A stretch of 64,000 nt of DNA from Aneurinibacillus uraniidurans (lineage in GTDB: Bacteria > Bacillota > Bacilli > Aneurinibacillales > Aneurinibacillaceae), in contig NZ_CP116902.1 of assembly GCF_028471905.1 (NCBI RefSeq), forward strand, positions 2,826,501 through 2,890,500, in the 5' to 3' direction. Shown here piece after piece: positions 44,947-56,334 of this stretch. Below the pieces are notes generated by a model, which worked only from the letters and a program-made list of their open reading frames with translations, ran no database searches and was not told the origin of the DNA. Each line of letters begins with the position of its first letter. Positions within the stretch are counted from its first letter, which is position 1. The position numbers and the translations under genes were made by a program.

Positions 44947-46854
44947 ATGAAGGCAAGAGTAAAAGAAATGCTACGACAAAACGAGCTGTTTCGCGTACTT
45001 CCAGAATCAATCATAACGGAAATCGTTGATGATTCCACAATCGTTTCTTTTCCAAAAAACCATTTTGTCATCCATGAACGCGACCGTGACAATGATCTAT
45101 TTTTCCTGATTACAGGACTTGCTAAAAATACGGTTATCACAGATGAAGGAAACGAATTTTCCGTTCGCTTCTATCATCCGGGTGAACTCGCAGGTCTGAT
45201 TAATACACTGGCAGAAGAGTCATCTCACTTTTCTATCCAAACCGTCGAGAATTGTGAATTCCTACGAATTTCCAAGTCACTATTTAACCGACTCATTCAT
45301 GAACAAACGTTATTTGCTGAACAGCTTACACACGATATTAGTCGACGCTTACAGCACATGTACCAGGCGCTGGCCGCAGAAACCTCTGAACACAAGCAGG
45401 GGTTTGAGACATACCCATACCGCAAGCGTGTAGGCGAGATGATGGAGTACACGATTACAGCCGTACCGCCAGAGGTTGCTGTAATCGAGGTTACTTCTAT
45501 CATGCTGAATGAAAAGGTTAGCTCCGTACTTGTCATGGAACACGATAAGCTTCTTGGTATCATCACAGAACGTGATTTAATCAAGCTAATTCCTGCTCAC
45601 ACTACCATCCCCACTCTCCGGGCATGCGATATTATGACGGAGAACGTTATTACAGTGGAAGATGATGCCTTCTTCTATGAGGCGATGCTTCTGATGATGA
45701 AACATCAGGTCAAACACCTTCCAGTCGTATCTGCAGGCAAAGTGGAAGGCATCATCACCCTGCGAAAACTGTCTGACTTCCGTGGACAGTCTGTACTCAG
45801 CACGGTAAAAACGATCGATCAGGCTGATACAATCGAAAAACTTGCGGAGCATCATACAAATATTACTGCCTTTCTAGATCGCATGATGAAAGAAGGAGCA
45901 GCAGCACACGAGATTTGCACCGTTATCACAGAACTGAATGATCGGGTGCTCCGTAGAATTATCAAACTTGCTGAGCAAGCCATGGTCGAAGAGGGACTCG
46001 GTACTCCACCGACTGATTACTGCTGGATTACGATGGGCAGTGAAGGCCGTAAAGAACAGACACTCAGCACCGATCAAGATAATGGCATTATTTACCCTGA
46101 TATCGATGATGATGCCCACCTTGCTGAAGTGGACGCTTATTTCGCCGCCCTTGCCGAAAAAATTGTCGCTGGACTCGAACAATGTGGGTTCCCTCGCTGT
46201 AAAGGGGATGTAATGGCAACCAATAAAAAATGGCGCAAATCACTCGCCGAGTGGAAATACATGGTGGAAGCCTGGTTCAATCATATGCAGGGAGAAGAAA
46301 TTCGGATGTTTACCATTTTCCTAGACTTCCGCCCGATATATGGACAGATGGCACTCGCTCATGAATTGCGCCAATATTTTATGATACGCAAAAAGAATTT
46401 CCCTTTTATGTACAATCTACTTGCGGAAGACGACGCATCATGTGGTGTACCGCTTGGTATGTTTGGTCGTATTGTTTACGACAAAAAAATTAAAGATGGG
46501 ATTGATATAAAAGGAGGAGCACTTGTCCATTTTGTAAATGCCATGCGTCTGCTCGCAATCTTTGAAAATATTGATGCTGTCTCGACACTTGAAAGACTTG
46601 CAGAGCTCACCGACAAAGGAACATTTACAAAAGAAGAGGAAGACGAAGTACGCGACTCCTTTAACACACTTCTCTATTTCCGCATTCGTGAAAACATGCG
46701 CCAGCTACAATCTGGCATATCGCTTTCTAATGAGTTGCATGTGGTATCTCTGCCAAAAGATGAGCAGATCCGGTTAAAAAAAGCGCTTAATACCGCAAAG
46801 TGGCTGCAGCAAAAGCTTATTCGCCAATTCCAGGTACGCGGTATCCGAATTTAG
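44947..46854 (+). CDS. cNMP-binding / CBS / DUF294 putative nucleotidyltransferase
   Basis: 635 residues: a cyclic-nucleotide-binding-like domain (about 1-135), two CBS motifs (about 160-275), a DUF294 nucleotidyltransferase domain with GSEGRKEQTLSTDQDNGI near 360, and a DUF294_C helical domain to the end. GlnD-like. Such proteins lie beside ActP acetate symporters and DnaQ-like exonucleases in other bacteria; here the DUF485-actP genes follow after a terminator. Likely a regulator sensing adenine nucleotides; target unknown. Confidence 0.9.
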   Translation: MKARVKEMLRQNELFRVLPESIITEIVDDSTIVSFPKNHFVIHERDRDNDLFFLITGLAKNTVITDEGNEFSVRFYHPGELAGLINTLAEESSHFSIQTVENCEFLRISKSLFNRLIHEQTLFAEQLTHDISRRLQHMYQALAAETSEHKQGFETYPYRKRVGEMMEYTITAVPPEVAVIEVTSIMLNEKVSSVLVMEHDKLLGIITERDLIKLIPAHTTIPTLRACDIMTENVITVEDDAFFYEAMLLMMKHQVKHLPVVSAGKVEGIITLRKLSDFRGQSVLSTVKTIDQADTIEKLAEHHTNITAFLDRMMKEGAAAHEICTVITELNDRVLRRIIKLAEQAMVEEGLGTPPTDYCWITMGSEGRKEQTLSTDQDNGIIYPDIDDDAHLAEVDAYFAALAEKIVAGLEQCGFPRCKGDVMATNKKWRKSLAEWKYMVEAWFNHMQGEEIRMFTIFLDFRPIYGQMALAHELRQYFMIRKKNFPFMYNLLAEDDASCGVPLGMFGRIVYDKKIKDGIDIKGGALVHFVNAMRLLAIFENIDAVSTLERLAELTDKGTFTKEEEDEVRDSFNTLLYFRIRENMRQLQSGISLSNELHVVSLPKDEQIRLKKALNTAKWLQQKLIRQFQVRGIRI

Positions 46855-46865
46855 TAATAAGAATC

Positions 46866-46902
46866 AAAAAGAAGCACGTCTTTACACGACGCGCTTCTTT
46901 TT
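46866..46902 (+). terminator. intrinsic terminator
   Basis: AAAAAGAAGCACGTC pairs with GACGCGCTTCTTTTT (one mismatch) around TTTACAC. Confidence 0.85.
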
Positions 46903-46965
46903 GTCAAGTAATTACACATAAAAAAAATTCTTGCAAATTTTCTCAAATATTTTAATATTTTAAAT

Positions 46966-46999
46966 AGATAGCGCTTACAACACTTTGAAAACGCTTTAT
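46966..46999. promoter_or_regulatory. two tandem cre-like (CcpA) sites
   Basis: TGTAAGCGCTATCT (minus strand, 46966-46979) matches TGWNANCGNTNWCA at all but the last base; TGAAAACGCTTTAT (46986-46999) matches 12 of 14. The centres are 20 bases apart, two helical turns. Upstream of the acetate symporter pair; carbon-catabolite control is inferred. Confidence 0.65.
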
Positions 47000-47079
47000 T
47001 TATAAGGAGGTGGCATTCTCGTACTACTTTATTCGTATACATGTACAATAATCATACTATAAGGATTGGAGTGAAAGGA

Positions 47080-47433
47080 ATGGCAGGATTTGCAAAAAGC
47101 AATTCTTCGACACCAGGAGGCTCCCACGGAAAAAAAATCAATTACACCGCGATTGTCCAGTCAGCAAAGTTTAAGCAATTAATGGCAACAAAGCGCAGCT
47201 TTATCATTCCGATGTGTATTTTTTTCTTTACGTTTTACTACGTCCTTCCTATTATGACTTCATACAGCAAGGTACTTAACACCCCGGCAATCGGTTCTAT
47301 TACTTGGGCATGGATCTATGCCTTTGCACAATTCATCATGACATGGGCACTCTGCATGATCTACTCAAGTAAAGCGGCCTCCTTTGACAAAATTTCTGAT
47401 GAAATCATTGAAGAAAACAAAGGGGGAAAATAA
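47080..47433 (+). CDS. yjcH: DUF485 membrane protein
   Basis: 117 residues from the ATG at 47080, following GGAGTG. Two membrane helices: the stretch FIIPMCIFFFTFYYVLPIM, and WAWIYAFAQFIMTWALCMIY. DUF485/YjcH proteins precede ActP acetate symporters in many bacteria. Three bases before actP in the same frame of transcription. The accessory role is inferred from this conserved pairing. Confidence 0.9.
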   Translation: MAGFAKSNSSTPGGSHGKKINYTAIVQSAKFKQLMATKRSFIIPMCIFFFTFYYVLPIMTSYSKVLNTPAIGSITWAWIYAFAQFIMTWALCMIYSSKAASFDKISDEIIEENKGGK

Positions 47434-47436
47434 TCA

Positions 47437-48969
47437 ATGAATACAACGGCATTTATATTCTTCCTTCTCATCGTAGGTGCCACTCTTCTGATTACGTACT
47501 ATGCTTCTAAGAGAACAAATTCAACAAGTGAGTTCTATACAGCAGGTGGAGGCCTGACCGGTTGGCAGAACGGCCTTGCAATTGCTGGCGACTATATGTC
47601 AGCTGCCTCATTCCTTGGAATCGCCGGTTCAATCGCTCTAACTGGATTTGACGGCTTCTTCTTTAGTATTGGATATCTTGTGGCGTATCTTGTTGTTCTC
47701 TACATTGTAGCCGAACCACTTCGCAACCTTGGTAAATATACGATGGCTGATATGATTGCAGCTCGTTTTGACAACAGTAAAGTTCGTGGTGTTGCTGCGC
47801 TTAGTACCATTACAATCTCTACGTTTTATATGATTGCTCAGCTCGTTGGAGCAGGTGCACTTATTAAACTTCTTCTTGGTCTTGACTATACGACATCCGT
47901 TTTAATTGTTGGTACACTGATGACCGTGTATGTAATCTTCGGTGGTATGACTGCAACGAGCTGGGTACAGATCGTTAAAGCCGTTCTGCTGATGGTCGGT
48001 ACATTCATCATTTCCGTTATGGTATTTGCGAAGTTTAACTTTAGCTTCGTTGAGATGTTCAACCATATGAAAACAGCAACACCGCTTGGCGAAGCTTATC
48101 TAAATCCAGGCGTAAAATACAAAAACGGTCTTGATACGATTTCGATTAACATTGCACTCGTACTTGGCACAGCTGGTCTTCCGCACATCCTCATTCGTTT
48201 CTTCACGGTTAAGGATGCGCAGACGGCACGCAAATCCGTTGTATACGCAACATGGCTGATCGGTTTCTTCTATATCATGACGATCTTCCTTGGCTTCGGA
48301 GCAGCTGCATTCGTAGGTAAAGAAGCGATTGTAAAAGCAAACGCAGCTGGTAACATGGCAGCTCCTCTGCTTGCACAATCACTCGGTGGTGATCTGCTGA
48401 TGGCATTTGTTGCAGCCGTAGCATTCGCAACAATTCTTGCGGTAGTAGCTGGTCTTGTACTGACAGCAGCCTCCGCTTTTGCTCACGACTTCTACAGTCA
48501 TATCCTGCGTAAAGGCCAGGCAACAGAAAAAGAACAAATGGTAGCGGCTCGCTGGGCTTCCATCGGTGTATCTATTATCTCTGTTATTCTTGCTCTGGGC
48601 GCACAAAAAATGAACGTAGCGTTCCTTGTATCGCTTGCATTCTGCGTAGCGGCAAGTTCTAATCTACCAGTTATCATCTTTACGATTTTCTGGCGCCGCT
48701 TTAATACAGCCGGAGCAATTACGGGAATGTTCGTCGGTCTCTTCACCGCTCTTATCCTGGTAGCCGTAAGTCCAAACGTATTCGGTCCTCCAGGCAAAGC
48801 GATCTTTGAAGGTACTCCGCTGATCACTCTAACTAACCCTGCACTCATTTCCGTACCGGTCGGCTTCCTTGCTGCCTATCTCGGCACATTCTTAGGACGC
48901 CGTGAGAGCGATGAGAAATTTGATGAAGTGCTGGTTAAAGCCAATACTGGCATAAAAGAAAGTGCGTAA
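47437..48969 (+). CDS. actP: cation/acetate symporter, SSS family
   Basis: 510 residues, about thirteen membrane helices. SSS motifs: YTAGGGLTGWQNGLAIAGDY near the N-terminus, SAASFLGIAGSIALTGFDGF, and SNLPVIIFTIFWRRFNTAGA. ActP imports acetate and short carboxylates with Na+ or H+. The preceding DUF485 gene and the cre sites support the call. Terminator at 49077-49110. Confidence 0.93.
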   Translation: MNTTAFIFFLLIVGATLLITYYASKRTNSTSEFYTAGGGLTGWQNGLAIAGDYMSAASFLGIAGSIALTGFDGFFFSIGYLVAYLVVLYIVAEPLRNLGKYTMADMIAARFDNSKVRGVAALSTITISTFYMIAQLVGAGALIKLLLGLDYTTSVLIVGTLMTVYVIFGGMTATSWVQIVKAVLLMVGTFIISVMVFAKFNFSFVEMFNHMKTATPLGEAYLNPGVKYKNGLDTISINIALVLGTAGLPHILIRFFTVKDAQTARKSVVYATWLIGFFYIMTIFLGFGAAAFVGKEAIVKANAAGNMAAPLLAQSLGGDLLMAFVAAVAFATILAVVAGLVLTAASAFAHDFYSHILRKGQATEKEQMVAARWASIGVSIISVILALGAQKMNVAFLVSLAFCVAASSNLPVIIFTIFWRRFNTAGAITGMFVGLFTALILVAVSPNVFGPPGKAIFEGTPLITLTNPALISVPVGFLAAYLGTFLGRRESDEKFDEVLVKANTGIKESA

Positions 48970-49110: not shown

Positions 49111-49168
49111 ATACCTGAAATGTTCATGATTCTCTCTCATCTCGACAAACCAAAGGTAAGAAGAACAA

Positions 49169-49222
49169 AAAACAGGAGAGAATACGAAAGAACGATTCAT
49201 CGTCCTTATGTTTTCTCTCCCG
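49169..49222 (-). terminator. terminator of the ezrA-like gene
   Basis: GGAGAGAA (49175-49182) pairs with TTCTCTCC (49213-49220) with extra inner pairing; on the minus strand it is followed by TGTTTTTTG. Confidence 0.7.
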
Positions 49223-49249
49223 TATCTTTCATTTCCCTACTTACCGTCG

Positions 49250-51469
49250 TTAGTCTAATCCATAACGTTCTACAGCAAGATTATATGCCTGATCTGCTAG
49301 CTCGTTCGCTTCTTCATAACGCACAGCGTGAAAGGCAGCTTCCGAAGCTTTCAGAAGCTTGCTGATCTCTGGATCATTACGACGAAAACGGTTGGTCCGT
49401 TGAATTTTATCTTCGGTCTCTCGCACATCCCGCACCATTTGCGCAGCTTGTTCAAGCGCTTTTTCTACTTGTCCTTTGGCCTGCTTTAGCAGCATTTCAG
49501 CTTTTTGAATATTAAGCGGACTTTCGGCAAGCGCATCTTCGACGGCAGCAATCGCCTGGCGACAGTGGTGCAAACTGTCGGATACATACAATGGAACATC
49601 CGGAAGATACAACCGCTTCAGCTGCTGTTCCACACGTGCTACGCTTGTACGTAAATCTTTAACTTCCTCAAGAGCTGTCGTCTCTCCTTTACGAAATTCA
49701 TTCAGCTCTCTCATAATTAATTCCCGCCGTTCCATAAACTCTGTTACTCGTTCTGCTACTTGCGTGAGCATTTGAGAATGTCGTTCATACGCTTCTGGAA
49801 CTTCCGCCGCAGCGATTTGTTCAAGTGCATCTTGGGCATCAGCTACAAGCGCAGGAATCTGCTGATAATAACGGAAAGCTTCTCCCTCTTCTACCTGATA
49901 ACGCTGAGCAAGATCCTCTAGCTCTTCGGCAAGGAACTGCTCATCCTGGCGCAATACCGTCACATAATGCGGCAGTTCAGTTATGTACTGGCGATAACGA
50001 TGGCGACTCGTCACAATCTCTTCCATCGTCTGATACACAGCTTCAATATCTTCCCGCACTTTACCAATCTCTTCTTCTGTCTCTTCAATTTTGCCCTCTT
50101 CGAATAACTGCGGCAAAACCTCCGCCCTACCTCGAATTTTAATAATCCGAGCTAAGAAAAACTCTTCTCCAGACGTGTACCCGCCTGTGACCATTTCTTT
50201 CGCATCCTCATCCAACTGGCGAATTTCCTGATCGATATCTTTCATAATCGCCTGGCGAATTAGCGGGATATTCTCCAGCTCTTCCTCCATACGGATCAGA
50301 TTGTCACGTACTTGCTGCAGCAGATCACGCGCCTCATGAAAGTCTCCTTTTTCTTCGGCTTCCTTGATCTCTCCAACTTCACGATCTAACTGGTTCAATC
50401 GTTCTTTTAATGTATGGAATGAAACTTTGTATTGGATTTTCAACTCGTTGAAGCGACGTTCCACTTTTTGACGCATTTCGTTCGTTTCTTCTTTAAAGCT
50501 TGAAACGTCCTGCAACGTTTCTTTCAAATTCTCAAGGCGAATATGCAGCTTATCCAAGTCAGATTCAATATGCATAAGTTTACCACTCGCTTCTGCGAGA
50601 ATATCCCGACTGCGTCGGAAACGGAACCGGGCCGTCATTTCTTCCGCGTCCGCCAGAATAAGTTCTACGTCTACAATGGCGTCTTTTTTGAGATCATCTA
50701 GCGATGTTAAAATGGCCAGATATTTCTCTTTAATCCGACCTGGCTCTTTCTTCCACGATGGATCAATCGTAAACAAGTTCAGTTGTTCCGATACGCGAAT
50801 ACGCCATTCATCGACCTCGTCAATTGCTTTTAGCGTGCGCTTACGCAGGGTAAAAGCAACAAGCAGTCCAATCCCAAACACCGCAACCAAAATCATTCCA
50901 ATGAGCAGCCAAACCGGGAAAACTTGTACATCTTGCGGAGCATTCGCCGCCGCTGTCTTCGCTACGATTTCCGTTGGTTTTGCATCTTTTACTTCAGTGT
51001 CTATCGACTGAACAAATGACAAAACACCTTTCATTATCGCACCCTGCTTAGCATATGGACTGAAAAAATTATCTACTTTACGCGTTATTACTTCCCCGGT
51101 AATGCCTCGCTCTGTAAAATATTTACCGCTAACCGCTACCATTTTTTTATCATTAAATGATACTACAATTACCATTGTTGTATCATTGATCGTAAAATTA
51201 TCTGGAAGCTGCTGTGCATACTGCGTCAGTGTAAGGGGTTTCGGATCTGCAATAACAAGTAGCTTATACGTCTGGGCAAGATCAGCAGCAACCCGGGTAA
51301 ACTCCTTCTTCTCATCGTCTTTTAGTAGATTTTGTGTATCAATAACCGGCTTGTTAATCGAAGGTGGGAATCCTTCTGCCCAAACGATAGGCGGACACAG
51401 CACTGTCATACACAGTACTACAATAACAAGGGTAAAACGGGACATTCGTCGTCCGGCGTCTCTCATCAT
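49250..51469 (-). CDS. ezrA: TPM-domain / EzrA-like fusion, septation ring regulator
   Basis: 739 residues; canonical EzrA is about 560 with one N-terminal helix. Residues 1-32 are a signal peptide (FTLVIVVLCMTVLCPPIVWA). Residues about 35-160 form a TPM domain (VIDTQNLLKDDEKKEFTRVA; TTMVIVVSFNDKKMVAVSGK). A membrane helix follows near 184-207, then about 530 residues of coiled coil with EzrA-type spectrin-like repeats. EzrA is a negative regulator of FtsZ ring assembly. The gene is next to refZ, as in Bacillus subtilis, which supports the EzrA call. ATG at 51469 behind AAAGGAG. Confidence 0.85.
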   Translation of the reverse strand: MMRDAGRRMSRFTLVIVVLCMTVLCPPIVWAEGFPPSINKPVIDTQNLLKDDEKKEFTRVAADLAQTYKLLVIADPKPLTLTQYAQQLPDNFTINDTTMVIVVSFNDKKMVAVSGKYFTERGITGEVITRKVDNFFSPYAKQGAIMKGVLSFVQSIDTEVKDAKPTEIVAKTAAANAPQDVQVFPVWLLIGMILVAVFGIGLLVAFTLRKRTLKAIDEVDEWRIRVSEQLNLFTIDPSWKKEPGRIKEKYLAILTSLDDLKKDAIVDVELILADAEEMTARFRFRRSRDILAEASGKLMHIESDLDKLHIRLENLKETLQDVSSFKEETNEMRQKVERRFNELKIQYKVSFHTLKERLNQLDREVGEIKEAEEKGDFHEARDLLQQVRDNLIRMEEELENIPLIRQAIMKDIDQEIRQLDEDAKEMVTGGYTSGEEFFLARIIKIRGRAEVLPQLFEEGKIEETEEEIGKVREDIEAVYQTMEEIVTSRHRYRQYITELPHYVTVLRQDEQFLAEELEDLAQRYQVEEGEAFRYYQQIPALVADAQDALEQIAAAEVPEAYERHSQMLTQVAERVTEFMERRELIMRELNEFRKGETTALEEVKDLRTSVARVEQQLKRLYLPDVPLYVSDSLHHCRQAIAAVEDALAESPLNIQKAEMLLKQAKGQVEKALEQAAQMVRDVRETEDKIQRTNRFRRNDPEISKLLKASEAAFHAVRYEEANELADQAYNLAVERYGLD

Positions 51470-51568
51470 GCTATACTCCTTTGGCCTTAATCAAACTTTG
51501 TTCTTTACTAAATTAGGTACAACGTGATAAAATTCCTGCTTTTCTCTCCTTTTTCTACAAAAAACCTA

Positions 51569-52192
51569 CTAAGATGTAACAGCAGGTGTCAAAATCTGTC
51601 GTACAACTGTATGCACATGCTGTATGGTCTGTTGAATAAACGACTCTTCGAGAGGTTCTAGATAAAATACCTCCCGCACAATCTGCGGATATGTATAGGG
51701 AAACCCAGCTATAGCAAACAAATAAATAATGACATGATCCACGTCAATCAACTTAAATTCCCCTGTCTCCATCCCCTCTTCCAAAACAGAAACAAAATAA
51801 TGTTTTAGACGTGTCAAATATGTACTCATAACCTCTCGCCCAAGCATAGATTCTACAGACAGTTCTCGCTGAATCAAGCGAGTGGTCTGACTCATCTCAC
51901 TCTGAAACCGAATGTGTACCTCTATCATACGATATAGCTGCACATTTGCCCCACCTTGCTCATCACAAGCCTTGCAAGTATCCAAGCGTGCAAAAAGCAA
52001 TTCATAATAGTCCATCATGATCACTTCAAGCAGCCCTTGTTTATGTTTAAAATAATAAGAGATTAGCGCTACGTTCACATCTGCCGCACATGCAATCTGC
52101 CGCACGGTTGTCCTGTCAAACCCCTGCGAATCAAACAACGCAGCCGCTGCGTCAACTATTTTCTGCTTCGTATGCTTCGGTGAACGTTTCAC
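51569..52192 (-). CDS. refZ: TetR-family DNA-binding protein, RefZ-like
   Basis: 207 residues from a GTG at 52192 behind AAGGGGG. The TetR helix-turn-helix is clear: IVDAAAALFDSQGFDRTTVR and AADVNVALISYYFKHKQGLL. RefZ in Bacillus subtilis binds motifs near oriC and, through FtsZ, helps trap chromosome and set polar septa during sporulation. It is called RefZ mainly because it lies beside ezrA and near a DgcP-like gene, the order found in Bacillus subtilis. Confidence 0.78.
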   Translation of the reverse strand: MKRSPKHTKQKIVDAAAALFDSQGFDRTTVRQIACAADVNVALISYYFKHKQGLLEVIMMDYYELLFARLDTCKACDEQGGANVQLYRMIEVHIRFQSEMSQTTRLIQRELSVESMLGREVMSTYLTRLKHYFVSVLEEGMETGEFKLIDVDHVIIYLFAIAGFPYTYPQIVREVFYLEPLEESFIQQTIQHVHTVVRQILTPAVTS

Positions 52193-52205: not shown

Positions 52206-52236
52206 AAAAAAACCTTGCGTCTATGACAGCAAGGTT
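52206..52236 (-). terminator. terminator of the TVP38-like gene
   Basis: AACCTTGC and GCAAGGTT pair around a ten-base loop; followed by T run on the minus strand. Overlaps the stop codon of the gene. Confidence 0.8.
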
Positions 52237-52883
52237 GGTTCTTTCTTCTTTTTTAGGTAATGAAGTCCAAGGACAAACAGAACCAAGCCGATGATAATGA
52301 TCGTCAACTTTCCTTTATGGTGCTCCCAATTCATTAAATAATGACCAAGAAATGATTCAAAGAGTACAGCCGGGACTTTCCCAATCAGAGTAGCTAACAC
52401 AAACCAGATAGTCGGAACCTTGGAAATTCCAGCCGCCGTATTAATAACACTGGAAGGAAGCACCGGGACCCAGCGTGCCAGAAGAATAATTAAAAATCCA
52501 CGTTTTTCTGCGTGGCGGTTCAAGTTTTTTAGAAAAGAGTGATGGCCGATTTTCTTCTCAGCCCAGTCACGTGCAGCATAACGAGCCAGAAAAAAGTTGG
52601 CCAACGCAGCAGCAACCGCTCCTACCCAATTCACCATAAATCCCGTCCACAGTCCGAACGCCATGACATTCGCACCAGCTAATAGCACAAAAGGAACGAT
52701 CGGAAAAAAAGTCTGGATAACAACCGCAAGAATCGCAATCAAAAACGCGATCCAGCCGTACGATTGAATATACTCAGCTACTTGCTCTACATTTCCTGTA
52801 CGTACGAGCTGTCCAAACTCTGTCTGCATGACAAAATAAATCATGATAGCCAAAAAAAGGACAGAAAAAATAATACGCTTCAA
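52221..52883 (-). CDS. TVP38/TMEM64 family membrane protein (DedA-related)
   Basis: 220 residues from a TTG at 52883 with GGAGG seven bases upstream; an in-frame ATG upstream would give a 271-residue protein with poor signals. About five helices. The VTT domain signature is in the part FPIVPFVLLAGANVMAFG ... GAVAAALANFFLARYAAR and RWVPVLPSSVINTAAGIS. DedA-related proteins function in membrane homeostasis and lipid carrier flipping. It lies between refZ and an MBL hydrolase gene. Confidence 0.85.
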   Translation of the reverse strand: MKRIIFSVLFLAIMIYFVMQTEFGQLVRTGNVEQVAEYIQSYGWIAFLIAILAVVIQTFFPIVPFVLLAGANVMAFGLWTGFMVNWVGAVAAALANFFLARYAARDWAEKKIGHHSFLKNLNRHAEKRGFLIILLARWVPVLPSSVINTAAGISKVPTIWFVLATLIGKVPAVLFESFLGHYLMNWEHHKGKLTIIIIGLVLFVLGLHYLKKKKEPTLLS

Positions 52884-52940
52884 TTGGCTGCCTCCTGTTT
52901 TCACATGCTTACTATCTTGCCTATTATACCACAAATCGAC

Positions 52941-52967
52941 AAAAAAACCCCTCTTATAACAAGAGGT
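52941..52967 (-). terminator. intrinsic terminator of the MBL gene
   Basis: CCTCTT (52950-52955) pairs with AAGAGG (52961-52966); on the minus strand followed by GGTTTTTTT. Confidence 0.75.
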
Positions 52968-52992
52968 CCATAAAAATATCGCTTTTTTCTGA

Positions 52993-53973
52993 TTATTTAT
53001 TCTGGCATTGATAGCGAACGATTCCATCACATACAATACGCTGCACTCTCTCAGTTCTCTCTAGCAAATCCAAATGACCAAGTGTCTCAGAAAATGTGAG
53101 CGGCATCTCTTTTTTATACACTTTTGGAAATAGACGCGCCGACAGTTCAAAAGCCGTCAGCGGGCCCTCTTCTAAAAGCGCTGCAATGCGAGTAGCTCGT
53201 TCCTCCTGACGCTGCAGACGGAGTTGAATCAGTCCTTTAGGATCGTTAATCTCACTTCCATGCGCTGATAGCATCCGCTGTATCGGCATGGATGCGATGC
53301 GACAAAGCGTGTCACGATACACCAGCAGCGGTTTGGGACGTTCTTCTTCTCGGGTTAGTGCTGGCTCAATAAAGGCATTCGATGAAATTTCTTGAATTAA
53401 AAAATCTCCTGACAGCATGAGACCGTCTTCCTCACAATACAAAGCAATATGATTTTGTGTATGTCCGGGTGTATACACAACCTTCCAGCCAGGATGTCCC
53501 GGGAGCTCATCTCCATCTGCAAGCGTTCCATGTACAAAAGCAGGGTCAGCATACATATCCATCATCTCTTGAAAACGCTCCACAGTAGACAGCATCTCCT
53601 CTGGTACCCCATTCTCCCGATACAACCGGTGAAAAAATTCATGATGCCAATTCATAAAGGCCGAATCTCGTTCTATATAAGGAACAGCACCTTCATGTGC
53701 TAAAATGGAAGCTCCTGATTTTTCGGCAATGACCGCAGCCAGTCCGCTATGGTCTACATGCTGATGAGTCAATACAATACGAGCAATGTCCTCAAAACCA
53801 AACTTATGTGTCTGCATAAATCTTTCTATACCACTTAGAGCATCTGAGGTTTTCGGGCCAGTATCTACAAGAGTCCAACCATCTTCTCCTTTCAGCCAAA
53901 AGATATGAATCGGACCTACGTTGAATGGTGTTGGAACTGTAAGACACTCAAGAATGCTAGGTATAATACTCAT
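52993..53973 (-). CDS. metallo-beta-lactamase fold hydrolase
   Basis: 326 residues from the ATG at 53973, following GGGGGGATAAGA. HxHxDH motif in VLTHQHVDHSGLAAV, then VYTPGHTQNHIALYCEEDGLMLSGD and a distal ML-SAHGSEI. The C-terminal ~80 residues look like a winged-helix (GPLTAFELSARLF), as in the LACTB2/MBLAC-like hydrolases. Substrate unknown. A FadR-like palindrome lies 18 bases before the ATG, suggesting a link to fatty-acid metabolism. Confidence 0.88.
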   Translation of the reverse strand: MSIIPSILECLTVPTPFNVGPIHIFWLKGEDGWTLVDTGPKTSDALSGIERFMQTHKFGFEDIARIVLTHQHVDHSGLAAVIAEKSGASILAHEGAVPYIERDSAFMNWHHEFFHRLYRENGVPEEMLSTVERFQEMMDMYADPAFVHGTLADGDELPGHPGWKVVYTPGHTQNHIALYCEEDGLMLSGDFLIQEISSNAFIEPALTREEERPKPLLVYRDTLCRIASMPIQRMLSAHGSEINDPKGLIQLRLQRQEERATRIAALLEEGPLTAFELSARLFPKVYKKEMPLTFSETLGHLDLLERTERVQRIVCDGIVRYQCQNK

Positions 53974-54057: not shown

Positions 54058-56334
54058 TTAATCTGCTTCACACATACGATTGCGACCGCTGCGTTTTGCA
54101 CGGTATAATGCTTCATCAGCTTTCTGAAATAGCACTTCTACAGCAAGCTCATTATTATCACGCGACCAGACCGCAATACCACCTGAAATCGTAACTTTTG
54201 GTGCCGTCTCATTCATGACATTTATACGCAGACGCTCTGCAACCTGTCTGGCGATATCATCTCCAACACACGGCAAATATACCGCCATTTCTTCCCCGCC
54301 CCAACGAGCTGCTACATCGGACAGACGAATTGACTTGTTCAATATATCTGATACCTGAATAAGAATCTCATCGCCTACCTGATGACCATATGTATCATTG
54401 ACATTTTTGAAATGGTCGACATCAAGCAAAATTAAAGCTCCGCAAGCATCCCGCTGATACGATTGACTAATAACATCATACAAGTATTTACGACTGTATA
54501 AGCCTGTCAAATTATCTGTGATCACCATACGCTCAACTTCCGCATGAAGAGATGCGTTCGTTACAGCAACTTTAACATGACGTGCAAGCATCTGCAGGCG
54601 TTTAAAGTCATCAAAAGTATAGCGATTTGGCTGCGAGTCCGTAAGCACAATTGCCCCTTCTACCTTATTGTTATCAATGAAAGGAACCGCCATAAGGGAC
54701 CGACAGGCAAATACCGATACAATTTCCTCCATACCACTAGCATCAGCGAGCAGAAGAGACTCTTTATTGAGAAGCAGGTCGCGCAGACGACTGTTTTCTG
54801 TAATTTCGAGAACGTTATCCTCTTTCTTATCGGTTGAAGCCTGAATAATAAATTGAGGACTATCATCGACGCGGGATAGAATACAACAGTGTTCAGCACG
54901 AAACGTCTCTGTGAGTTTATGAATAATGGAAGCAAGCAAATCATCTAGCCGAATGTTTTTGTTAAGTTGGCTGGTCATTTCATCAATTAGCAGGAGTTCT
55001 TTAATAAGGTTTTGCGACTGCTGGTATAGCTGCGCATTCTCAAACGCACTTCCCGCCGTATCCGCAAGCATCGTGATATATTCAATTTCCCCTGGATGAA
55101 GGGACAGCGATTCTTTCGTGTACAGCTCAATAACCCCGTATACTCCCTGTTTACCCCGTAGTGGAGAAGCTAGTGTCAGTGCTCGATCTCCCTTTGACTG
55201 CACAAGCATCGTCCGCCCCTCCATAAAAGCCCGTGAACTGACATCATTTACATCAAATGTAAATTGCTTAACAGGAAGCTTGGAAAATGTATCGTGTGAC
55301 AGCCATAAATCGACCTGCATTTTCGGATACAGCTTTTTTGTATTTTTAATTACAGCTTCAAGCACATCCTCTACATTAATAGAAGAATGGATTTTTTTCG
55401 TTACTTCAAACAGCAGTGTGCGCTTTTGTTCATCTCTTTCGAGGCGCATATACATCATGGCATTGTACACAGCTAGACTCAAATCTTTAGCGAAGCGCTC
55501 TACAAACAGCTTCTCTCGCTCTGAAATCGGCTGTGCTTTCGAACGAAGGACAGCAATTACACCAATAATTTTCTCCCCATACCGGAGCGGAGAAATCACA
55601 TAGCTTTCTTCAAAAGCATCGGGATTATCAAAAAGAGTTCGAATATTCGAATTTTCATTCGTGAGCTGCGTTCGCTTATTTGTAAATAAATGTGTCACCT
55701 GTGTATACACAGTATGAATATCCCGAATCATATGACGATCCCAACGGCGAATTCTCTTTTTACTGACGGTCCAGTGCGGTGATATATCTTGCTCAGCATC
55801 ATATACCATTGCCCAGCACTCTGTCTGATCCAGGCTTGCAGCAAGTCTTTCTGAAATAATTTCCATAATCCGGTCCAGATGCAGCGTCTCATTCACTGCT
55901 TTTAAACAAGCAGAAATGCTCTTAGCTACGTATTGTTCTTGCACCATACGAAATAACGAAGCAGTCCCCTGTACAAATGAAAACCCACATTTTGAGTCAA
56001 CCTCCTGAGAAAAAGTCGCCCCGATATAGCCCGGAAACCATACATTTTCTAGAACCGGAACACAGATTGTATAGTTCCCATCCTGCTCCGCAATATAAGG
56101 TTCCGCTGCTAAAACCGGATACGATTTCTCTAACGAACAGAGTGGATCGCCGATTCTGCGCCCTGCAACAGTACGTCCCATCTCATCTACTACAAACAAC
56201 CAGCCTACATCAGCCGGAAACGATGAAGTAGAGAGAAACGTCTGACTGTACCGAAATACCTCCATCAGGTATCTGGCATAAAATGAATCTGCTATAACCT
56301 GCTTATCTTCAACATACACAAGGTCATTATTCAC
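54058..56334 (-). CDS. dgcP: multi-GAF diguanylate cyclase, DgcP/YtrP-like
   Basis: 758 residues from a GTG at 56334 (AGAGGG upstream). An N-terminal sensory segment (about 1-150), then GAF-like domains (about 150-300, 305-435, 445-595) and a C-terminal GGDEF with GGEEM at 679-683. Bacillus subtilis DgcP (YtrP, about 579 residues) is a GAF-GGDEF enzyme in the same place beside rpsD and refZ, so this is its longer counterpart. GGEEM is a permitted variant of the GGDEF active site, so activity is likely. Confidence 0.87.
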   Translation of the reverse strand: MNNDLVYVEDKQVIADSFYARYLMEVFRYSQTFLSTSSFPADVGWLFVVDEMGRTVAGRRIGDPLCSLEKSYPVLAAEPYIAEQDGNYTICVPVLENVWFPGYIGATFSQEVDSKCGFSFVQGTASLFRMVQEQYVAKSISACLKAVNETLHLDRIMEIISERLAASLDQTECWAMVYDAEQDISPHWTVSKKRIRRWDRHMIRDIHTVYTQVTHLFTNKRTQLTNENSNIRTLFDNPDAFEESYVISPLRYGEKIIGVIAVLRSKAQPISEREKLFVERFAKDLSLAVYNAMMYMRLERDEQKRTLLFEVTKKIHSSINVEDVLEAVIKNTKKLYPKMQVDLWLSHDTFSKLPVKQFTFDVNDVSSRAFMEGRTMLVQSKGDRALTLASPLRGKQGVYGVIELYTKESLSLHPGEIEYITMLADTAGSAFENAQLYQQSQNLIKELLLIDEMTSQLNKNIRLDDLLASIIHKLTETFRAEHCCILSRVDDSPQFIIQASTDKKEDNVLEITENSRLRDLLLNKESLLLADASGMEEIVSVFACRSLMAVPFIDNNKVEGAIVLTDSQPNRYTFDDFKRLQMLARHVKVAVTNASLHAEVERMVITDNLTGLYSRKYLYDVISQSYQRDACGALILLDVDHFKNVNDTYGHQVGDEILIQVSDILNKSIRLSDVAARWGGEEMAVYLPCVGDDIARQVAERLRINVMNETAPKVTISGGIAVWSRDNNELAVEVLFQKADEALYRAKRSGRNRMCEAD

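Follow-up and report, generated by a model that had tools for sequence, protein, structure and literature searches.

TPM-EzrA, an EzrA protein with a predicted extracellular TPM domain, is widespread in early-branching Bacilli

EzrA in its textbook form is described without a folded part ahead of the membrane helix (PMC5354558). According to the available text of PMC4243239, the first spectrin repeat of Bacillus subtilis EzrA binds FtsZ, and the available text of PMC12288466 reports FtsA binding by the QNR motif of other EzrAs. Coordination of division across the membrane is regarded as a major unresolved question, and EzrA has been named as a possible mediator (PMC5354558). TPM domains are known from other proteins; a role in the assembly of membrane complexes is favoured for them in the available text of PMC11237479, where YdjH-type proteins are also described as a TPM domain followed by a long coiled coil. 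In the literature searched, no paper was found on a fusion of TPM with EzrA and none contained both 'EzrA' and 'TPM domain'. Here we describe such a fusion, TPM-EzrA, from Aneurinibacillus uraniidurans and its relatives.

Gene, domains and fold of TPM-EzrA

The window, which is the whole stretch of DNA analysed, comprises 64,000 nucleotides, and all positions refer to it. The tpm-ezrA gene (49250 to 51469, minus strand; 739 amino acids) was identified by its open reading frame, by Pfam and NCBIfam models and by a genome-wide profile search. It starts with an ATG codon, six nucleotides after a ribosome-binding site, AAAGGAG, read from the sequence (51476 to 51482, minus strand), and is followed directly at its 3′ end by a terminator-like hairpin with a T-run (49160 to 49228, minus strand; −28.9 kcal/mol, z of −5.7). 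The genome is a single contig of 3.85 Mb, in which tpm-ezrA was the one EzrA match above the cut-off, the second match being weak (18.9 bits). The refZ gene lies 99 bp upstream (51569 to 52192, minus strand), its product being a member of the NCBIfam RefZ equivalog NF037937 (200.3 bits against a cut-off of 180). A RefZ-like match was present upstream and on the same strand in all seven named relatives (five Aneurinibacillus and two Ammoniphilus records), in 9 of 14 further TPM-EzrA loci, with the match about 1 kb off in three loci of family f20, and in 12 of 20 plain ezrA loci; the locus L079 begins too close to a contig end for this neighbour to be judged. All 17 genomes searched for FtsA, the source genome among them, had a match above the cut-off. 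The orthology of the gene is established by computation, and tpm-ezrA is the true ezrA of the source organism.

Other genes surround this locus. A VTT/DedA membrane protein (52221 to 53036, minus strand) has a weak likeness to the undecaprenyl phosphate transporter UptA (31.6 bits against a cut-off of 250). A GAF-GGDEF diguanylate cyclase (54058 to 56334, minus strand) is encoded upstream of the MBL, VTT and refZ genes, and a gene similar to this cyclase was found near refZ or ezrA in several other families. A row of genes for a CBS/DUF294 protein, a DUF485 protein and an acetate-type sodium symporter (44947 to 48969, plus strand) is convergent with tpm-ezrA.

The initial annotation had described this protein as an EzrA whose body is preceded by a signal peptide and a TPM domain, both lying outside the membrane. 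Both domain assignments were borne out by Pfam: the EzrA model (PF06160) matched residues 192 to 728 over profile positions 3 to 541 of 557 with 235.5 bits (cut-off of 39.6), and the TPM model (PF04536) matched residues 42 to 157 with 29.7 bits (cut-off of 22.1), so that the protein belongs to both families, the two matches sharing one stop-free frame. The cut-offs of the narrower NCBIfam EzrA equivalogs were not reached, the best score being 241.6 against 556. Two hydrophobic segments were detected, one at the N terminus (19-residue windows within residues 8 to 34) and one within residues 179 to 211, followed by the basic stretch RKRTLK. A signal peptide is predicted at residues 1 to 31 (51377 to 51469; this and the following features lie on the minus strand) from the structural model, hydrophobicity and the alignment; a helix at residues 3 to 23 is followed by an Ala-containing end, of which A31 was invariant in 13 aligned rows of the order. 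The predicted extracellular TPM domain, supported by Pfam, the model and structure matches, extends over residues 32 to 164 (50978 to 51376) and is followed by a flexible linker at residues 165 to 185 (50915 to 50977). A transmembrane helix at residues 186 to 208 (50846 to 50914), indicated by Pfam, the model and hydrophobicity, sits at the position of EzrA's own membrane helix and is predicted to run into the first helix of the spectrin-like cytoplasmic body (residues 209 to 739; 49253 to 50845), which was identified by Pfam, the model and structure matches.

An AlphaFold2 model, generated with 24 sequences, had a pLDDT of 84.7 and a pTM of 0.46 and exhibited a signal helix, an alpha/beta domain at approximately residues 32 to 164, a low-confidence linker (pLDDT below 50 at residues 166 to 185), a helix at residues 186 to 232 and a long helical rod. 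When this model was compared with the PDB by Foldseek, the first rank was taken by EzrA (4uxv; E of 4.4e-7) and ranks 2 to 8 by chains of the TPM proteins BA41, TLP18.3, PG_0361, Psb32 and BA42 (E of 7e-4 to 7e-3). In VIA-align, the TPM part of the model had a TPM fold as predicted, matching 5anp over 131 residues (Z of 18.4, rmsd of 2.0), while the model matched 4uxv over 502 residues (Z of 16.3, rmsd of 9.8) with a predicted spectrin-like rod. Sequence searches of the PDB with the order's profiles returned 4uxv for the body (8.9e-52) and the TPM protein 5anp for the N-terminal part (2.7e-5). Structure prediction, which had been set as a check on the original assignments, thus rejected neither of them and recovered both domains, which are established by computation. 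The signal peptide and the basic residues after the membrane helix would fit a topology, predicted from the sequence, with TPM outside and EzrA inside. The textbook topology, a description of standard EzrA that lies outside the Pfam definition, has nothing folded ahead of the membrane helix and does not apply to this protein, in which approximately 185 residues with a signal peptide and a TPM domain come first.

Within the body, the QNR motif is present as QRTNRFR (residues 690 to 696; 49382 to 49402, minus strand), which was aligned with 4uxv by the order's profile. The strict pattern was found in 23 of 30 TPM-EzrA rows and in 27 of 29 EzrA rows without TPM, and the seven TPM-EzrA rows from which it was missing were all early branches. 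A chance coiled-coil match to EzrA was ruled out by the whole-length score, the QNR motif, the fold and the refZ context. In family f23 (L068 to L072), a long Ala/Glu/Pro-rich stretch was seen by eye to replace part of the rod, ahead of a conserved LPG[IV]P region.

Distribution, sister family and ancestry

EzrA was present in all 15 genomes of the order, and in 13 of these the full fusion was encoded in one open frame, by which an assembly or frame artefact was ruled out. One genome (G010) had a plain EzrA lacking TPM. In another (G008; locus L008, 1249 to 3144, plus strand), the TPM core had been removed by an in-frame internal deletion with retention of the signal peptide, linker and membrane helix; this genome represents a ready-made natural TPM mutant. 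At least three of the order's fused proteins (G002, G003 and G005) escaped the Pfam TPM model, although the whole domain aligned in each of them.

A domain search across Bacillales had been suggested at the outset, and a search of the wider class recovered the fusion in nine families, or ten with f26. The class sample consisted of 398 genomes, of which 256 had an EzrA at an E value of 1e-20 or better. A profile of the signal peptide, TPM domain and membrane helix detected frames of at least 734 amino acids in 57 of these 256, namely, 13 genomes of the order, 35 of f23, three of f20, two of f25 and one each of f3, f13, f21 and f24. Fourteen loci were fetched from the 44 genomes outside the order and each had TPM and EzrA in one frame, while for the other 30, all from f23, the fusion was deduced from frame length; a long frame with a TPM N terminus was carried by 35 of the 35 EzrA-bearing f23 genomes in the sample. 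Three f26 genomes had the same layout as read by eye, the TPM domain being recognised by alignment only, and no TPM was seen on the EzrA of G038. TPM-EzrA is, by these counts, widespread in early-branching Bacilli. In three f23 genomes (G222, G382 and G364), one stop codon fell within the N-terminal profile match; this codon may precede the true start, or the copy may be damaged.

Among 59 genomes from other classes of the phylum, no TPM-EzrA was detected at an E value of 1e-4. Matches were obtained in 10 of these genomes, eight of them to free-standing TPM frames (255 to 290 amino acids) and two to body-only frames, one of 347 amino acids and one of 767 amino acids (G412) with 79 body positions matched. 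A search of plasmid records with the window protein gave three matches, each restricted to the body (query residues 187 to 725 or 190 to 725), and no plasmid match was obtained with a TPM-CC protein, the sister family described below. In family f9 (L085 and L086), in genomes that yielded no EzrA, a signal-TPM-membrane protein of 217 to 229 amino acids resembled the N-terminal part of TPM-EzrA and is perhaps a remnant that lost the EzrA body.

The sister family, TPM-CC, has a signal peptide, a TPM domain, a membrane helix, an EzrA-like rod and a Gly/Ser/Trp-rich tail. It is carried by f5, f30, f54, f56 and f20; in G001 and in some f23 genomes it is present as a second gene. Members include L181 and L182 (f23) and L081 to L084, L179 and L180 (f5). 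TPM-CC resembled TPM-EzrA in hhalign comparisons (E of 5.7e-42 across 717 columns), the two bodies matched each other at 1.1e-19 compared with 2.2e-4, 2.5e-4 and 8.9e-7 for reversed controls, and a TPM-CC model matched 4uxv over 468 residues (Z of 15.4, rmsd of 15.4). The family differs from TPM-EzrA in that the QNR pattern was found in 0 of 9 members and the tail takes the place of the last helices. Both proteins co-occurred in five genomes (G001, G137, G257, G320 and G052) and are, therefore, distinct genes. As the f5 and f30 proteins are TPM-CC, genomes of these families count as being without a recognised EzrA; EzrA was not recognised in the f5 genomes checked, and we infer that f5 is probably Paenibacillaceae.

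A tree of EzrA bodies (61 rows, two of them TPM-CC; TPM columns excluded) contained five changes of TPM state compared with a mean of 20.6 after shuffling. The TPM-bearing f20 and the TPM-less f32 (100, starred) joined the canonical clade in this tree (97, starred, for the whole clade). A grouping of crown and f32 EzrAs without f20 was not rejected when ten long or divergent rows of the 61 were dropped (p-AU of 0.303), and a separate loss in f32 is, therefore, not forced. In an rpoB tree rooted by eight genomes of other classes, the deepest branches apart from the large remainder, namely, f25, f13 and f3 with f26, bore TPM-EzrA, with the exception of G038, and were unaffected by the relabelling of f5 and f30 as TPM-CC; plain EzrA appeared as one later clade plus scattered losses, and the basal fork of the class was open. 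An EzrA tree of 42 hand-picked rows rooted by TPM-CC had five branches at a poorly resolved base, of which four were TPM bearing except for L008, L016 and L097 and the fifth combined the canonical EzrAs with the TPM-bearing f20 and the TPM-less f32.

The minimum of five state changes, the long branches of f26 and f25 and the open basal forks would be compatible with a recent fusion within Aneurinibacillus or with several independent captures, the TPM domain not then being ancestral. This reading is disfavoured, and we consider it very improbable, as a single architecture extends across nine or ten families, every free-standing TPM falls on one side of one branch of the TPM tree (98/74) and the rpoB outgroup and sister-family rootings agree. 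A single ancestral TPM with several later losses is the simplest reading; it is supported by the trees, both rootings being in its favour, but not proved, as basal branches are long and forks open. The TPM arrangement is probably ancestral to EzrA, and the trees suggest that textbook EzrA is a version that lost TPM. A broader scenario, which we put forward tentatively, is that EzrA began in Bacilli as a TPM-spectrin scaffold across the membrane, with an outer TPM arm that would bind the wall-synthesis side and an inner rod that would bind FtsZ and FtsA, that its Bacillus, Staphylococcus and Streptococcus forms may be reduced descendants and that f5 may keep a sister TPM-spectrin protein.

Conservation and proposed role of the TPM domain

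Within f1, six fused rows had identities of 41 to 53% over the TPM domain compared with 53 to 64% over the body, and a seventh had 88% compared with 91%; in more distant families, both parts were approximately 19 to 30% identical. For the one pair formed by the window protein and L012, the nearest relative fetched, dN/dS was 0.13 for TPM and 0.05 for the body, indicating purifying selection on the TPM segment that is weaker than that on the body. Across the order's 13 rows, seven TPM positions did not vary (D44, Y68, Y84, G115, G122, P138 and G148). These values bear on whether TPM could be a structural spacer or a relic of membrane topology that is tolerated without a partner. Such a role would account for the lower conservation of TPM relative to the body within f1 and for its absence from G010, G008, G038 and a large crown clade, but fits poorly with the dN/dS value, the invariant positions and the retention of TPM at full length across nine families (ten if f26 is counted), including every EzrA-bearing f23 genome sampled. 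A spacer or relic is, on these grounds, unlikely.

Two motifs distinguished fused from free-standing domains. Of the 20 free-standing TPM rows, 15 had DNG[VIL]L and 18 had GYGxEG; neither motif occurred in any of the 29 fused-type rows, among which were the window protein and two TPM-CC proteins (f5 and f30). These motifs are, we assume, linked to metal binding or catalysis. Divalent-metal binding and phosphatase-like roles had been attributed to the TPM domain in the initial annotation; this attribution is unsupported because the fused-type domains lack the two motifs that free-standing TPMs usually carry, a loss established by computation. A related alternative, the view of the initial annotation, holds that TPM is an extracellular enzyme or metal sensor that alters the action of EzrA on FtsZ upon an external signal. 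The TPM fold is clear, enzyme activity has reportedly been claimed for some TPMs and one fused protein (L067, f24) retains DNG, followed by ML. Against this stand the motif counts and the printed doubts about a phosphatase role, which is called unlikely in the available text of PMC12419801, citing PMC11237479. We regard an enzyme or sensor as improbable, and less probable than a spacer.

A docking arm is favoured for TPM because of the motif loss, the assembly role favoured for TPM domains elsewhere and fold matches between the domain and chains of the mycobacterial respiratory supercomplex (Z of approximately 12 in VIA-align). Our main reading, to which we assign a probability of roughly 0.55, is that tpm-ezrA is the true ezrA, with an ancestral, non-catalytic TPM docking arm outside the cell and a body acting on FtsZ and FtsA, and that the textbook form is reduced. 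The EzrA arch and QNR motif would, like their B. subtilis counterparts, act on FtsZ and FtsA, while the N terminus would cross the membrane and, beyond a linker of approximately 20 residues, end in the folded extracellular TPM domain. Having lost the motifs of free-standing relatives, this domain may serve as a protein-binding arm, for which we infer a docking role and a partner among the extracytoplasmic components of the machinery for division or wall synthesis. Docking of this kind would tie the Z-ring to the cell exterior and could help to assemble the division or wall complex. With an extracellular domain that is probably ancestral, this EzrA may thus connect the division ring physically to the outside of the cell. 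A counterpoint to the docking-arm reading is that TPM is dispensable in places, namely, in the three genomes and the crown clade noted above.

Comparison with known systems

A natural EzrA with a folded outer domain offers a direct handle on the coordination of division across the membrane. Within the same family, some natural relatives lack TPM, and the one domain could be removed or serve as bait. The findings also change the view of the origin of EzrA and point to an EzrA-like protein in genomes that yield no match to the EzrA model. The combination of TPM with a coil is already on record, as the YdjH type in the available text of PMC11237479, and the TPM-EzrA pair may already have been entered in domain databases. 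Actinobacterial TPM-coil proteins may be a further case, an example being cg2496, which has 2kpt as its N-terminal domain.

TPM-EzrA shares with canonical EzrA, represented by the B. subtilis structure 4uxv and the Staphylococcus aureus fragment 4uy3, a single membrane helix, a spectrin-like rod, the QNR motif and the refZ neighbourhood. Canonical EzrA, in contrast, is without a signal peptide or an extracellular domain, and it is these that make up the extra residues, approximately 185, before the membrane helix of TPM-EzrA. With described TPM proteins (BA41, 5anp; BA42; TLP18.3, 3pvh; Psb32, 8c7i; and PG_0361, 2kw7), TPM-EzrA shares the fold (Z of 12.4 to 18.4) and an exported position. Its TPM domain differs from the free-standing bacterial TPMs in being fused to EzrA and in being without DNG[VIL]L and GYGxEG.
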